A stretch of 5,269 nucleotides of DNA from Candidatus Eiseniibacteriota bacterium. GTDB lineage: Bacteria > JAFGKV01. The notes below the pieces were generated by a model. It was not told the origin of the DNA, searched no databases, and worked only from the letters and a program-made list of their open reading frames with translations. Location: positions 10,780 through 16,048 of the forward strand of contig JALOPK010000085.1 in assembly GCA_025453925.1 (NCBI GenBank), written 5' to 3'. Position 1 is the stretch's first letter, and every line of letters begins with the position of its first letter. The translations under genes and the position numbers were made by a program. This document shows, in pieces, positions 1 through 5,269 of the stretch.

Positions 1-781
1 TCCCCCAGATGTCTCCCGCTACCTCGAGGGCGTCGGCACCGGGCGCGACACCACCCAGCAGGGGCAGGACAATACCCCACGCTATCACGCCTCCGATGGT
101 AATGAGCGCTGCTATGGGGAGATCCACGATGTAGCCGACCGCGATCAACGCAGGGCTCATGTCAGCGCCGACGTAGAGTGCCCGCTGCCCGAGGGAGGTC
201 GCCCACTCGACCGTTCCCCTCACCAGCTTCACGCCGCTCACAAGGAGTTTGAACACCGTGCCCGTCAACAGGCCCAGCGCGATCGCCTTCACGCCGGCGC
301 CGCCCTTCTCTCCGGTGATGAGCACCTCGGCGCAGGCGATCCCCTCTGGATAGGTAAGATCCGGGCGCTCGACAATGAGGGCGCGCCGCATCGGGATCAT
401 GAACACAATGCCCAGCAGGCCTCCGAGCAGGGCGATGAGGGTAGTGGGTACGAACTTGAAGTCCTGCCATGCGCCGACAAGGACGAGAGCGGGCACCGTG
501 AAGACGATTCCTGCCGCGAGGCTCTCGCCGGCGGACGCCATCGTCTGTACGATGTTGTTCTCGAGGATGCTGCCCCGTCGGAACACACCCCTCAGAATTG
601 CCATGCTGATGACGGCAGCCGGAATCGAGGCACTGACCGTCATGCCGGCATACAGGCCAAGGTACGCATTGGCTGCCCCCATGATAACGGAGAGGACGAT
701 GCCGAGGGAGACTGCTGCAATACTGGTCTCTCGGTCCTCGCGTCTCGCGGTAGTGCGCCTTTGGCGGTGGTGGTTGGTCAC
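1..781 (-). CDS. OPT-family oligopeptide transporter, N-terminal part (3' end outside window)
   Basis: The minus-strand frame is open from the GTG at 781 to the window edge and gives 260 residues. It matches the prokaryotic OPT (oligopeptide transporter) family, inner-membrane proteins that import peptides or metal chelates by cation symport. Family hallmarks seen are GAANAYLGLYAGMTVSAS at residues 35-52 followed by IPAAVISMAILR, ENNIVQTMASAGES at 74-87, TYPEG at 143-147 before ACAEVL, and a segment around 200-222 ending GYIVD. Hydrophobic membrane segments lie near residues 21-43, 45-63, 88-104, 112-130, 164-182 and 209-245. The first 20 residues are polar and Arg-rich, as expected for a cytoplasmic tail. 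The GTG start is chosen because GGGAG sits 7 nt upstream and the next in-frame stop upstream (821-823) leaves no ATG. The family is usually about 550-700 residues, so over half lies outside the window. It starts 39 bp after the MshEN-DnaA gene, so co-transcription is likely. The substrate cannot be told. Family assignment is confident; the start is fairly confident. Confidence 0.93.
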   Translation of the reverse strand, partial: MTNHHRQRRTTARREDRETSIAAVSLGIVLSVIMGAANAYLGLYAGMTVSASIPAAVISMAILRGVFRRGSILENNIVQTMASAGESLAAGIVFTVPALVLVGAWQDFKFVPTTLIALLGGLLGIVFMIPMRRALIVERPDLTYPEGIACAEVLITGEKGGAGVKAIALGLLTGTVFKLLVSGVKLVRGTVEWATSLGQRALYVGADMSPALIAVGYIVDLPIAALITIGGVIAWGIVLPLLGGVAPGADALEVAGDIWG

Positions 782-820: not shown

Positions 821-2017
821 CTACGTGCGCATCAGCGTCAGGTGTCTCCGAATCGCGTCGATTGTGGGCTTCTCGCCGCTGATGGCGAGGCGAAGGGAGA
901 GGTTGCGGAGCGTGCCCTCCAGATACCGGATGTCGTCCGGCAATTCCCGGGCCAACTCGCCGATGAGCGCGTCGGGAAGCCTGGCTTCCGATGCCTTCTG
1001 CTTGGCCATGATGATCGCCGTCTTCAATGCGACGCTGGCGGTCCCCACGTGGACCGTGGCGCCGGTTGAGAACTGCGACCGGATTTCATCCAGCAGCACA
1101 TCGAGCTCCTCCAGCGGCCGGTCGCTGGTTGCCGCAACCTGCTTTCCCTGCGCGCAGAGAAGTCGGAACAGCTTTGCGAATTCCTGCTGCACTCCGCGAT
1201 GGCGTGCCAGGAACTGGATGTCGTCGAGAAGCAGGAGATCGGCTCGCTGGTATCGGGAATGGAACTGCTCCACCGACTTGGTCTCGATGGCTTCTGTCAG
1301 TTCGTGTTCCACTTCCGTGGCCGGGAGCCACGCCAGACAGCGGGAAGGATCCCGGGCCAGGGCGCGATTGCCGATGGCGCACAGCAAGTGGGTCTTGCCA
1401 TGACCGACTTCGCCGTAGATGAGCAGCGGGTTTCTCGCCGTCCCCGGATACTCGGCAGCCTCTTCGGCCGCAAGGTAGGTCGTTCGGTTGGCGTCGCCCA
1501 CCACGAAGGTCTCGAAGGAGAGATTCGGCGGCGGCTGAGGGAACACGGGCATCGCTGCGGTGACTTCAGGCGCGAAGGCGACCTCAGCGCCGTAGTGGAG
1601 AGAAATCGCCCGACTCAATGTGTCGCGGGGGCACAGAACCGGGCGAACCCGCCGCCGCAGGAACGCCGATATCGCCTGGACCGCACGGTCGTTCATGGGA
1701 TTGGCGAATGCCACCGTTACCTGGTCGAACGAGGCGCCTATAGGCATGGCCTGGTACTGGTGCGCCATGGACGAGGGGATCAAACCAACGATGTCAGCGC
1801 TGATCTTGCAGTCTGCAAGGGTAGGTTGCAGGCGTGCATAGTGCCGTGCAAGCAGCGGCAGGAGAATGCTCTCCTCGACGAAGCCGAGTTCCACCAGAGT
1901 GTTGCCGAGGATTTGGCCCGTGCGGCGCTGGTGATGGAGAGCCTCCTTCAACTGATGCTCGGTGATCACCCTTTCCTCCACCAGCATTGTCCCGAGGCGC
2001 TTTCGTTCCTGTTTCAT
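821..2017 (-). CDS. MshEN (GspE/PilB N-terminal)-DnaA-like AAA+ fusion protein
   Basis: This is a complete 398-residue cytoplasmic protein with two modules. Residues 6-143 form an MshEN/T2SSE N-terminal domain, a module that binds cyclic di-GMP in several type II secretion and type IV pilus ATPases. Two 24-residue motifs (7-30, starting RLG and ending Q; 36-59, starting ILG and ending H) are separated by 5 residues, the family's spacing. After a short Pro-rich linker (158-164), residues 165-395 match DnaA domain III: LSFETFVVG at 166-174, Walker A GEVGHGKT at 202-209, Walker B LLLLDDIQFL at 261-270, sensor I ATSDRP at 296-301, and sensor II Arg364 in DDIRYLEG. The arginine-finger position (SRF in DnaA) reads SQF at 314-316. 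The protein ends right after the AAA+ lid, so DnaA domain IV, the DNA-binding helix-turn-helix, is absent. No secretion ATPase core is present. The ATG at 2017 is chosen because GGAG lies 9 nt upstream and the MshEN motif begins at once. A longer in-frame start at 2152 would add 45 residues with no domain character and run across the likely promoter. Role unknown; a regulatory ATPase is likeliest. Confidence 0.9.
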   Translation of the reverse strand: MKQERKRLGTMLVEERVITEHQLKEALHHQRRTGQILGNTLVELGFVEESILLPLLARHYARLQPTLADCKISADIVGLIPSSMAHQYQAMPIGASFDQVTVAFANPMNDRAVQAISAFLRRRVRPVLCPRDTLSRAISLHYGAEVAFAPEVTAAMPVFPQPPPNLSFETFVVGDANRTTYLAAEEAAEYPGTARNPLLIYGEVGHGKTHLLCAIGNRALARDPSRCLAWLPATEVEHELTEAIETKSVEQFHSRYQRADLLLLDDIQFLARHRGVQQEFAKLFRLLCAQGKQVAATSDRPLEELDVLLDEIRSQFSTGATVHVGTASVALKTAIIMAKQKASEARLPDALIGELARELPDDIRYLEGTLRNLSLRLAISGEKPTIDAIRRHLTLMRT

Positions 2018-2230: not shown

Positions 2231-5200
2231 CTACCGCAGAACGATCATTCGCTGGGTCGCCTGGTCGGTGCCTGCGACGATCCGCGCGAAGTAGGTACCC
2301 GCCGCGACGGGCCGATGGTCCCGGTCCCGCCTATCCCACATCGCCGAATGAGTGCCCGCGTCCAGAACGCGGTCGATGATCGTAGCGACCTCTCTGCCCA
2401 TGATGTCGTAGATGGCCAGAGAGACCGGAGACTTCTCTGGTAGATCGAATCTGATGGTCGTCTCGTCGGTCATCGGGTTGGGGGCGCTCTGATGGAACTC
2501 AAACGTGAAGGAGATCGGCTTCGGCGGTCCGAAGGCCAGGGCCGCGCCGACTCCTCCGGTCACACTCAGCGTGTAGGAACTCGTCGCTCCGTTGTACCCA
2601 TCGACAAAGAGATAGTAGCGGCCAGTCGTTGCCGAGTAGCTCCCGGTCTCGGGATTCGAGGTGGAATAGCCGCGGGCAACCTCGGTCAGGCCGGAGTTGT
2701 ACAGGAACCAGTCGAGATCAACGGAGCTGCCGATGGCCAGCGAGATGTTCACCGTGCCCGCAGTCGTGACGTCGAAGTAGAACCAGTCGTCATCGGTGCT
2801 TGACGAGATGGAGCCAGACACGGTGACCCCCGAGCCGACAGGACCATCACTCGTCCCGGAGTCGTTGTTTGGTTCGCTCTCCGCGGTGATGTAGCTCACT
2901 CCGCTGCTTCCCGTCACGCTGATGTCGTCGAAGGCCATGCCGTCGGTGGTCATCGGGTAGTCGTCATACTGCTGGAACTTGACCACGAAGGTGCTGGTCA
3001 GGCTCAGGCCGGCGGTGGCCGCCAACTGGTCCACGTCAAGCGTGAACTGGTTCCAGGTGTTGTCGGTGTAGGAGGCGCCCGCGAGGCTGTAGACCTTGGT
3101 GAAGGTACTGCCGCCGTTGCTGGAGAAGTAGACCCCGTCATTGGTCTGGGTCTCGTCGTTGAAGTCCTTCCACCAGAACGACAGAGTTGCCTGGGTGTAG
3201 CCCGCCAGATTGAGGCGCAGCCAGGCAACGTTCTGCGAGTAGCCGCCGCTGGTGGCGTCGTCCATGCACATGTGGTACGAGCCGCCGTGCGGGGTGTTGG
3301 TGGTCAGCAGCCTGACGCGCCCGTTGTTGTTGGAGCTGGTGGACCAGTACTGGTCGACAGCCCCGGTCTCGAAGCCCGTGCTGTACGGCAGCGTGGCATA
3401 GGTCGCCCCGGAGACCTGGATGGTGAAGTTGGCGTTGCTGATGTCGTTAGTGGCAGAGGCCGCGGCATCAGAGACCCGCACGCGGCCCTGGGTGGTCGCG
3501 GTCGACGGAACCGTCCACGCCTGGGAACCGTCATTGGGAGTGGAACTGGTGATAGTAGTCCAATTCACTCCCGCGTTGGTCGAGTACTCCAGCATCACGT
3601 TGGCGATGGTGCCGGTGGACGTCCACGTGATGGTGTAACTGGCGCCGCCGGTGAGGGTCTCGCCTCCGTTCGGGGCCGTGACCGTCACGCTGTTCGTCAC
3701 GGGCAACTGGATGGTGAAGTTCGCGTTGCTGACGTCGTTGGTTGCTGCGTTGGCTGCATCTGAGACGCGCACACGCCCTTGGCTGGTGGCCGATGACGGC
3801 ACAGTCCACGCCTGGGAGCCATCGTTGGTCGTAGAGCTGGTGATGGTCGTCCACGAGGAACCGGCATTCGTGGAGTATTCCAGCTTCACGTTGGCGATGC
3901 TGCCGGTGGACGTCCACGTGATGGTGTAACTGGCGCCGCCGGTGAGGGTCTCGCCTCCGTTCGGGGCCGTGACCGTCACGCTGTTCGCCGGCCCGCCGCC
4001 GCCGACTGCCGCGGCTGCGTCGACCATGCCATAGCCGGTGTAACGATCCCACCCGGCGCCTGATTCGACGCTGCTGACATCCTGGGCGGTGGTCACCAGC
4101 CGGTCCCGGATCTGGGCGTTGGTGAATGATGAGTTGGCCGACTTGATGAGGGCGCACACGCCGGCCGCATACGGCGTCGCGCACGAGGTTCCGTTGAACC
4201 ACTTGGAGTAGTTGCCGGAGTCGTAGCCGCCGCTCCCGCTGATATCAGTGGTCGGCAGGATGGTCGGGGCGATAACGTCTACGGCACCTGCGGCATTCTG
4301 GGTCGTGGTTCCGTAATTGGATCCCCACCAGCGCTCGCCGTCGCACGTGTAGCCGTTGGGATCGGTGTTGACGCCAGGATTCACTTCGCTGGAGCTGCTG
4401 CTGCTGCGCTTGCGCTCACCGCATGGAGATGCGGCGCCGACGCCGATCACGTAGGAGTTGATCGCGGGATAGCTGATGGTCGAGCTGTTCTCGTTGCCGG
4501 TGGCAGCCAGAATGGTGCAGCCTTTGTTGTAGGCGTACAGGATCGCATTGTCGGTGGCCGTGTCACTCGATATGGCCGCCCCGAGACTCATGCTGATGAC
4601 GTGCGCGCCGTTGTCTCCGGCATAATAGAGCGCATTTTGGATCGCGGAGAAGTACATGGAGCCATCGCTGGAGGCGACCTTCAGGGGCATGATCTTGCAG
4701 TTGGCAGCGATGCCAGCGGCACCGACGCTGTTGTTCACCTTGGAGGCGACAACGCCTGCGCAGCACGTGCCATGGCCGGCTTCCGCACTGTTATCCATGG
4801 GATTGCTGTCATTGTCGCCGTAGTCGTAGCCCGTGACCAAGGTGAGATCCGGGTGCGCGGTGTCCACCCCGCTGTCAATGATGGCGACGATGACCGTCGA
4901 GCTGCCGTAGCCCTGACTCCCGTCCCAGGCTGCGTGGGCGTTGGCATCGAAGCCGACGGTTCCCACAGCCGAACCAGCCTCGTGCGAGCCGGCGCTCCAG
5001 TTGAAGGAGAGCATCTGAGCCGTGTTGTTGTGCCCCCAATGCATGGAATGGAGCGGATCGGTTGGTACTGCGGCGGGGACCGCTCGCCAATCCGGCGAGG
5101 CCGCCTCAATGTTCTCGTCATCCGCGAATGCCCTTGCAACAGCGAGGGGATCCTGCGCTGGATCGATCTCGACCATGAACCACCGGTCGACTCCGATTCT

Positions 5201-5269
5201 GGCCTGCAGGTCCGCATCCTTGAGGCGGTCATACGGTTTGACCAGTCGCGTCGCGCCGAAGCGGCCGCA
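2231..5269 (-). CDS. Secreted multidomain subtilisin-like S8 serine protease (5' end outside window)
   Basis: There are 1012 visible residues; the frame stays open to the right edge, so the signal peptide and true start are missing. The first visible ATG (5176) is internal, because residues before it continue a typical S8 propeptide (about 1-65). The catalytic domain (about 80-425) has Asp132 in AIIDSGVD (codon 4874-4876), His166 in AGHGT (4772-4774), oxyanion Asn259 in AATGNEN (4493-4495) and Ser362 in NGTSCATP (4184-4186), so it should be active. Next come two near-identical 93-residue Ig-like/Kre9-KNH-type modules (429-521 and 526-618), a MAM/LamG-like jelly-roll domain starting near STGFETG (about 620-787), a PPC (pre-peptidase C-terminal) domain starting ESEPNND (about 796-906), and a FlgD-like/T9SS type A sorting-like domain (927-1012: APNPM, LAIYDIMGREV, GTYFARI, ending QRMIVLR). 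The expected role is degradation of extracellular proteins, on the cell surface or released. A Ser-rich insert lies between Asn259 and Ser362. Its stop is followed by a terminator hairpin. Family and layout are confident; the secretion route is inferred. Confidence 0.95.
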   Translation of the reverse strand, partial: CGRFGATRLVKPYDRLKDADLQARIGVDRWFMVEIDPAQDPLAVARAFADDENIEAASPDWRAVPAAVPTDPLHSMHWGHNNTAQMLSFNWSAGSHEAGSAVGTVGFDANAHAAWDGSQGYGSSTVIVAIIDSGVDTAHPDLTLVTGYDYGDNDSNPMDNSAEAGHGTCCAGVVASKVNNSVGAAGIAANCKIMPLKVASSDGSMYFSAIQNALYYAGDNGAHVISMSLGAAISSDTATDNAILYAYNKGCTILAATGNENSSTISYPAINSYVIGVGAASPCGERKRSSSSSSEVNPGVNTDPNGYTCDGERWWGSNYGTTTQNAAGAVDVIAPTILPTTDISGSGGYDSGNYSKWFNGTSCATPYAAGVCALIKSANSSFTNAQIRDRLVTTAQDVSSVESGAGWDRYTGYGMVDAAAAVGGGGPANSVTVTAPNGGETLTGGASYTITWTSTGSIANVKLEYSTNAGSSWTTITSSTTNDGSQAWTVPSSATSQGRVRVSDAANAATNDVSNANFTIQLPVTNSVTVTAPNGGETLTGGASYTITWTSTGTIANVMLEYSTNAGVNWTTITSSTPNDGSQAWTVPSTATTQGRVRVSDAAASATNDISNANFTIQVSGATYATLPYSTGFETGAVDQYWSTSSNNNGRVRLLTTNTPHGGSYHMCMDDATSGGYSQNVAWLRLNLAGYTQATLSFWWKDFNDETQTNDGVYFSSNGGSTFTKVYSLAGASYTDNTWNQFTLDVDQLAATAGLSLTSTFVVKFQQYDDYPMTTDGMAFDDISVTGSSGVSYITAESEPNNDSGTSDGPVGSGVTVSGSISSSTDDDWFYFDVTTAGTVNISLAIGSSVDLDWFLYNSGLTEVARGYSTSNPETGSYSATTGRYYLFVDGYNGATSSYTLSVTGGVGAALAFGPPKPISFTFEFHQSAPNPMTDETTIRFDLPEKSPVSLAIYDIMGREVATIIDRVLDAGTHSAMWDRRDRDHRPVAAGTYFARIVAGTDQATQRMIVLR
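3416..3694 (-). repeat. Second copy of tandem 291-bp module in the protease
   Basis: This encodes the second Kre9/KNH-like beta module (visible residues 526-618). It begins NSVTVTAPNGGETLTGG and ends NANFTIQ, and matches the first copy at 83 of 93 residues. The offset between copies is exactly 291 bp (97 codons). The stretch 3610-3696 is identical base for base to 3901-3987. Confidence 0.92.
3707..3985 (-). repeat. First copy of tandem 291-bp module in the protease
   Basis: This encodes the first Kre9/KNH-like module (visible residues 429-521), directly after the catalytic domain. It has the same start and end motifs as the second copy and ten residue differences from it, clustered in the C-terminal two thirds. 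Such modules are usually surface-binding or spacer domains. Confidence 0.92.
4325..4426 (-). other. Ser/Cys-containing insert in the S8 catalytic domain
   Basis: Between the oxyanion Asn and the catalytic Ser, the protease carries an extra surface segment of about 34 residues. It starts PCGERKR, continues with six serines (4388-4405, five AGC codons and one TCC), passes through VNPGVNTDPNGYTCDG, and ends before WWGSNYG. Two cysteines bracket it and could form a disulfide. Asp/Asn-rich turns could bind calcium; both ideas are inference. Confidence 0.6.

Follow-up and report, generated by a model that had tools for sequence, protein, structure and literature searches.

The gene at positions 821-2017 of the window, by which we mean the whole 5,269-nucleotide stretch of DNA that was analysed, encodes a 398-residue protein in which an MshEN domain is, with certainty, joined to a DnaA-type AAA+ domain. 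The architecture is real and conserved and is apparently undescribed. A literature search, for which most subscription papers were out of reach, found no description of MshEN-DnaA proteins, of REC-DnaA proteins or of DnaA-domain response regulators. The protein is likely to serve in signalling; a link to type IV pili is plausible and a link to replication is unlikely.

Two domains in one chain

The N-terminal half of the protein begins with the 53-residue c-di-GMP motif region of the MshE type (NCBIfam NF053729; residues 7-58, 62.2 bits against a cut-off of 38, 3e-17), followed by the MshEN domain PF05157 (residues 67-145, positions 1583-1819 of the minus strand, as are all features of the gene given here; 59 bits against a Pfam cut-off of 23.1, E 4.5e-16). 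A short linker (residues 146-165, 1523-1582) connects it to the Bac_DnaA AAA+ domain PF00308 (residues 166-322, 1052-1522; 143.4 bits against 23, E 9.5e-42), and an AAA+ lid (residues 323-398, 824-1051) completes the chain. In a phmmer search of the PDB, the first 150 residues resembled MshE (5htl, 7e-18) and PilF/PilB, and residues 160-380 resembled DnaA domain III (8bv3, 1e-40). The fusion, which an earlier note had proposed from the letters of the sequence, is thus confirmed by Pfam, NCBIfam, the PDB matches and a full-length ortholog.

The same note had stated that no secretion ATPase core follows the MshEN module, and the T2SSE profile PF00437 indeed had no Pfam match in the window protein. 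Also missing is the domain IV helix-turn-helix of DnaA, as PF08299 gave no match at E ≤ 1 and the chain ends with the lid. The domain I profile PF11638 had no match either, the N-terminus being MshEN, but this is a weak criterion here because the genome's own DnaA also lacks a PF11638 match. The NCBIfam model of DnaA (TIGR00362) scored 203.6 bits, below its equivalog cut-off of 343.9, with the match stopping at model position 336 of 437, and that of Hda (TIGR03420) scored 69.2 bits, far below 194.8.

A comparison with the three known systems shows where the protein departs from each. With MshE, PilB and PilF it shares the two-motif region with its 5-residue spacer, the MshEN_C part and the key residues of motif I, but it lacks the ATPase core as well as Arg38 and Gln61 of motif II. 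With DnaA domain III it shares the FVVG N-linker, Walker A and B, sensors I and II, and an alignment free of gaps from Walker A to Walker B; it differs from DnaA in the absence of domains I and IV and in the replacement of Arg285 by Gln and of Arg281 by Glu. Like Hda, it has a DnaA-type AAA+ domain and no DNA-binding domain, whereas its score, its MshEN module and its missing arginine finger set it apart. Overall, the protein resembles a hybrid between an MshEN sensor and an AAA+ protein of the DnaA/Hda type, but identity with DnaA fails on domain IV, the arginine finger and the equivalog score, identity with Hda on the equivalog score, and identity with PilB/GspE on the T2SSE core.

The mechanically called open reading frame begins at position 2152. 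We took the ATG at 2017 as the start instead; it fits the MshEN motif as well as the place where the ortholog begins, and a GGAG, a putative ribosome-binding site (2027-2030), lies 9 nt upstream. With this start, the length and the start region are as in the ortholog. The structure predicted for the protein from two sequences was too poor to be of use (mean pLDDT 45).

The ortholog comes from Candidatus Fermentibacteria bacterium CSMAG_2897 (G002), a member of the same family but of a different genus. It is 66% identical over the same layout and the same 398 residues, with 63% identity in the MshEN half, 69% in the AAA+ half and 40% in the linker, the lowest of the protein. Codon positions 1, 2 and 3 differ by 28, 18 and 59%, and dN is about 0.27 against a dS of about 2.5, which is near saturation. 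Judged from this codon comparison, purifying selection is acting on both halves of the fusion. A scan of genome contigs found the Candidatus Fermentibacteria ortholog alone, and a scan of viral contigs gave a single weak match, to the P-loop region. The same-genus genome G001 (94% complete) contained no close ortholog, its best match being 39% identical; hence, the gene is dispensable or patchily distributed.

The window genome is a metagenome-assembled genome (MAG) of 3.9 Mb in 502 contigs, 82% complete, whose class is assigned by NCBI to Candidatus Fermentibacterota of the FCB group. The scaffold contains a run of Ns just past the window start, which might raise the suspicion of an assembly artefact or of a chance join of two genes, but the same fusion in a uniform frame in an independent MAG from a different genus, and the recurrence of the architecture in four lineages, reduce the probability of this to practically nil.

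Functional residues of the two halves

The AAA+ half carries the elements named in the earlier note: FVVG, Walker A (GEVGHGKT, residues 202-209, 1391-1414), Walker B (LLLLDD, residues 261-266, 1220-1237, within LLLLDDIQFL), sensor I (TSD, residues 297-299, 1121-1129) and the sensor II arginine (Arg364, 926-928, placed by the family alignment). The set K208, T209, D265, D266, D299 and R364 is retained in full, and the protein probably binds ATP. The note had missed two features, namely the loss of the arginine finger and the degeneration of MshEN motif II.

The first lies in box VII (EIRSQ, residues 311-315, 1073-1087), which we aligned to solved DnaA chains and to the family. The equivalent of E. 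coli Arg281 is Glu311 and that of the arginine finger Arg285 is Gln315. E. coli DnaA needs Arg285 for its intrinsic ATPase activity and to oligomerise head to tail in an ATP-dependent manner, and the sensor 2 residue Arg334 is important for hydrolysis (PMC5742627). As the Arg285 position is occupied by Gln, the window protein would not be expected to form DnaA-style filaments with itself through arginine-finger contacts.

The second concerns the ligand. Motif I (RLGTMLVEERVITEHQLKEALHHQ, residues 7-30, 1928-1999) keeps R, L, G, L, L and Q, with Arg in place of G18. In motif II (ILGNTLVELGFVEESILLPLLARH, residues 36-59, 1841-1912), R38 is replaced by Ile and Q61 by His, and the ortholog has the same changes. 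The Arg and Gln of this motif touch c-di-GMP in MshE (PMC5013675), which makes c-di-GMP binding by the window copy doubtful; its motif falls outside even the relaxed motif of that study. The organism itself probably makes c-di-GMP, as its genome contains 12 GGDEF matches.

Relatives and their gene clusters

In a spread sample of 386 species, MshEN-DnaA proteins were found in at least ten genomes of four lineages: three small phyla with three genomes each and the genome G131. Four candidates were scored per genome in these broad runs, and the count is therefore a lower bound. With a family profile, full-span proteins of the genomes other than G131 scored 557-625 bits against at most 362 bits for DnaA-only matches. 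A common origin for the whole set of MshEN-DnaA proteins was not rejected (AU p 0.355), and for this reason we dropped the claim that the fusion arose repeatedly and independently. In all three lineages that were checked, a full-length dnaA is present in addition to the family, and in the window genome the canonical DnaA scores 476.5 bits with TIGR00362 and possesses domain IV. A conserved family across several phylum-level lineages, accompanied by a real dnaA, is what the earlier note had named as support for a dedicated regulator.

In G131, the tenth genome, the MshEN-DnaA gene lies beside a gene for an MshEN-only protein, which directly precedes it, and no pilus genes are in view. A search of the phylum around G131 at a strict threshold was empty; the family-profile match of G131 itself is under that threshold, probably on account of a long linker. 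Stand-alone MshEN proteins of 150-190 residues, the one in G131 among them, occur at L055:5163-5630, L063:3807-4268 and L122:7513-8085.

Three lineages provide a genomic context. In lineage f25, the gene for a 435-468-residue MshEN-DnaA protein heads a pilB-pilT-pilS-pilR operon in three of three genomes, with pilC too where seen. The order is pilB, pilT, pilS, pilR in L112 and L119, and in L113 an open reading frame occupies the position of pilB with the rest unchanged; profile tests were run in G026, and G311 and G173 were matched in order by the starts of their open reading frames. In Fermentibacterota, tandem MshEN-DnaA genes are located between the prepilin peptidase gene (pilD) and pilB-pilT-pilC-pilS-pilR (L046, L118 and, in part, L045). 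The tandem cluster of G001 and G002 encodes a 983-residue protein with MshEN and DnaA domains, a 420-440-residue MshEN protein, a 409-423-residue MshEN-DnaA protein and a protein of 1308 (cut) to 1993 residues, which starts with MshEN-DnaA and in G002 carries another DnaA domain close to the C-terminus. The G002 cluster opens with a pilin-like gene (a weak PilA match), the prepilin peptidase, the four MshEN/DnaA genes and a TonB_C gene, after which come pilB, one more gene, pilT, pilC, pilS, a second pilT-like gene and a pilR-like regulator. The window genome has the prepilin peptidase and the start of a gene of the 983-residue type at the end of contig C183 (L054).

In the third lineage, f117, the protein is present in three of three genomes and its gene sits between two DUF4388 genes (in G382 the contig breaks off on one side). 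Next to it are genes for a Ras/Arf-type, MglA-like small GTPase and for a Roadblock protein that among the NCBIfam models matches MglB best, at a score below the cut-off. MglA and MglB are described as setting pilus polarity in Myxococcus, and the f117 gene context fits such a role.

The proteins of the f25 and Fermentibacterota pilus clusters share the two-domain layout with the window protein from end to end, but are only 31-39% identical to it. Its closest MshEN-bearing relatives are those in L045 and L046 (37-39%). The arginine finger that the window protein lacks is retained in the f25 proteins and in the long protein of the cluster, which in L046 also retains the key residues of both MshEN motifs.

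The window copy is flanked by an OPT transporter and a subtilase, with no pil genes adjacent, and the neighbours of its ortholog are different again. The OPT-family gene (2-781, minus strand), which is interrupted by the run of Ns, begins about 40 bases past the MshEN-DnaA stop, so that the two may be co-transcribed. On the other side, the subtilisin-like protease (2231-5269, minus strand) has tandem Ig-like repeats and a C-terminal sorting domain of the Por-secretion/FlgD type, which resembles those of secreted proteins of the FCB group. A strong, terminator-like GC-rich inverted repeat (GGCACCCCGGCCGGATCCCGGCCGGGGTGCC, 2187-2218) follows the stop of the subtilase gene and precedes the start of the MshEN-DnaA gene.

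DnaA-type AAA+ domains are also joined to receiver domains. Three genomes from the phylum of the window have 9-13 Bac_DnaA matches each, and six REC-DnaA response regulators were found in the window genome, G000 (L049:6492-8363, L048:2265-4370, L050:6154-7959, L051:5595-6818, L052:2189-4042 and L053:1850-3322), and six in G001. They have a receiver in place of MshEN, and most share an additional C-terminal region of about 200 residues, e.g. PVIVLG...IPEGDRWAYLVH...SMRRLF, which has no Pfam match. The AAA+ domain of the window protein groups with two short cluster proteins and the REC-DnaA set (SH-aLRT 96), a moderate result given the long branches and supports of the SH-aLRT type only. Five of the six listed REC-DnaA proteins share the R-to-E change in box VII, and the arginine finger is lost in five of the six.

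A proposed signalling ATPase and its possible target

The DnaA AAA+ domain is known as the engine of replication initiation, and Hda as its regulator. The reading that we tentatively favour, while placing it slightly short of probable, is that the window protein is a signalling ATPase in which an MshEN input is coupled to an AAA+ domain of the initiator clade without a DNA-binding part, with control of type IV pili or of surface behaviour as its probable output. In the case of the window copy, the pilus part of this reading is drawn from the relatives, whose gene context is indirect evidence, not from its own neighbourhood. The MshEN module would either sense a ligand, c-di-GMP with full or weakened affinity, or dock on MshEN domains of partners, and would thereby determine whether the AAA+ domain is in its ATP or ADP state, or which partners it binds. 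This domain would work as a switch or an assembly factor that depends on ATP, and its targets would be protein partners (the motor of the pilus, polarity factors or DnaA-like paralogues that have a finger), not oriC. As the ATP pocket is kept and the finger is absent, the protein could accept the arginine finger of a neighbouring paralogue, but could not supply one, and would then cap or modulate mixed AAA+ oligomers.

A possible, though less probable, explanation is a general regulator of signalling or gene expression unrelated to pili, i.e. an MshEN-input sister of the REC-input versions with some other target. The sister position of its AAA+ domain to the REC-DnaA radiation, the six such proteins in each of G000 and G001 and the absence of pilus neighbours are all in line with it. 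On the other hand, no DNA-binding domain was detected in the window protein and its nearest MshEN-bearing relatives sit in a pilus cluster.

The earlier note had suggested that the protein links a second messenger to a DnaA/Hda-type ATPase, with replication initiation among its possible targets. A signalling regulator is still the best reading, but for the window copy the tie to c-di-GMP is weakened by motif II, and action on replication initiation was not supported. An Hda-like or DnaA-competing protein would bind the AAA+ face of DnaA and shift initiation upon a signal, and the clearly DnaA-type domain, an ATP site that the arginine finger of DnaA could reach and the presence of a real DnaA all speak for this. 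We nevertheless regard it as improbable: domains I and IV and the finger are missing, the Hda score is low, no replication genes were found as neighbours in any lineage examined, and the relatives occur in pilus or MglA-MglB-type clusters.

Equally doubtful is a diverged paralogue that has lost its signalling role and persists as an ATP-binding scaffold, its MshEN half kept only for protein contacts. The changes in motifs I and II and the missing finger agree with such a loss, and there is a precedent in Xcc GspE, in which c-di-GMP binding was lost through changes of key residues (PMC5013675). However, the two halves are about equally conserved in the ortholog, dN is far below dS, and perfect conservation of the motif may not be required for binding (PMC5013675).

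Extending the signalling reading, DnaA-type AAA+ domains could form a general class of signalling outputs, in which mixed oligomers of MshEN-DnaA and REC-DnaA proteins, some with fingers and some without, would control type IV pili and cell polarity in response to second messengers or phosphorylation, independently of replication. We consider this broader scheme speculative and rather unlikely as it stands. Here the DnaA-type AAA+ domain is found behind MshEN and receiver inputs, a genome having about a dozen copies, and in several lineages its genes lie directly in pilus or polarity clusters. Should this be confirmed, the proteins would represent a novel class of AAA+ proteins in signal transduction, MshEN would have an output of a new type, and machinery of replication would clearly have been turned to surface behaviour. 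For annotation, some caution is advised, as MshEN-DnaA genes are readily mislabelled as dnaA.

Other arrangements were seen in the course of these searches. Giant TPR proteins with a DnaA-type AAA+ domain at their end, in which the DnaA domain seems to have been reused as well, are encoded at L116:3958-10356 (G014, 2132 residues, with an N-terminus that by eye is like a primase-type zinc finger) and at L083:1-2310 (G301). Proteins of about 700 residues with two DnaA-type AAA+ domains per chain are encoded at L117:5392-7497 (G107), where a DUF4388-like gene lies nearby, and at L092:1471-3546 (G243). Outside the window, on contig C7 of the window genome, L044:1143-2003 encodes a relative of the FmrO/Rmt-type 16S rRNA (G1405) methyltransferases beside tgt (Pfam 4e-52; NCBIfam 213 bits, under the cut-off of 250).
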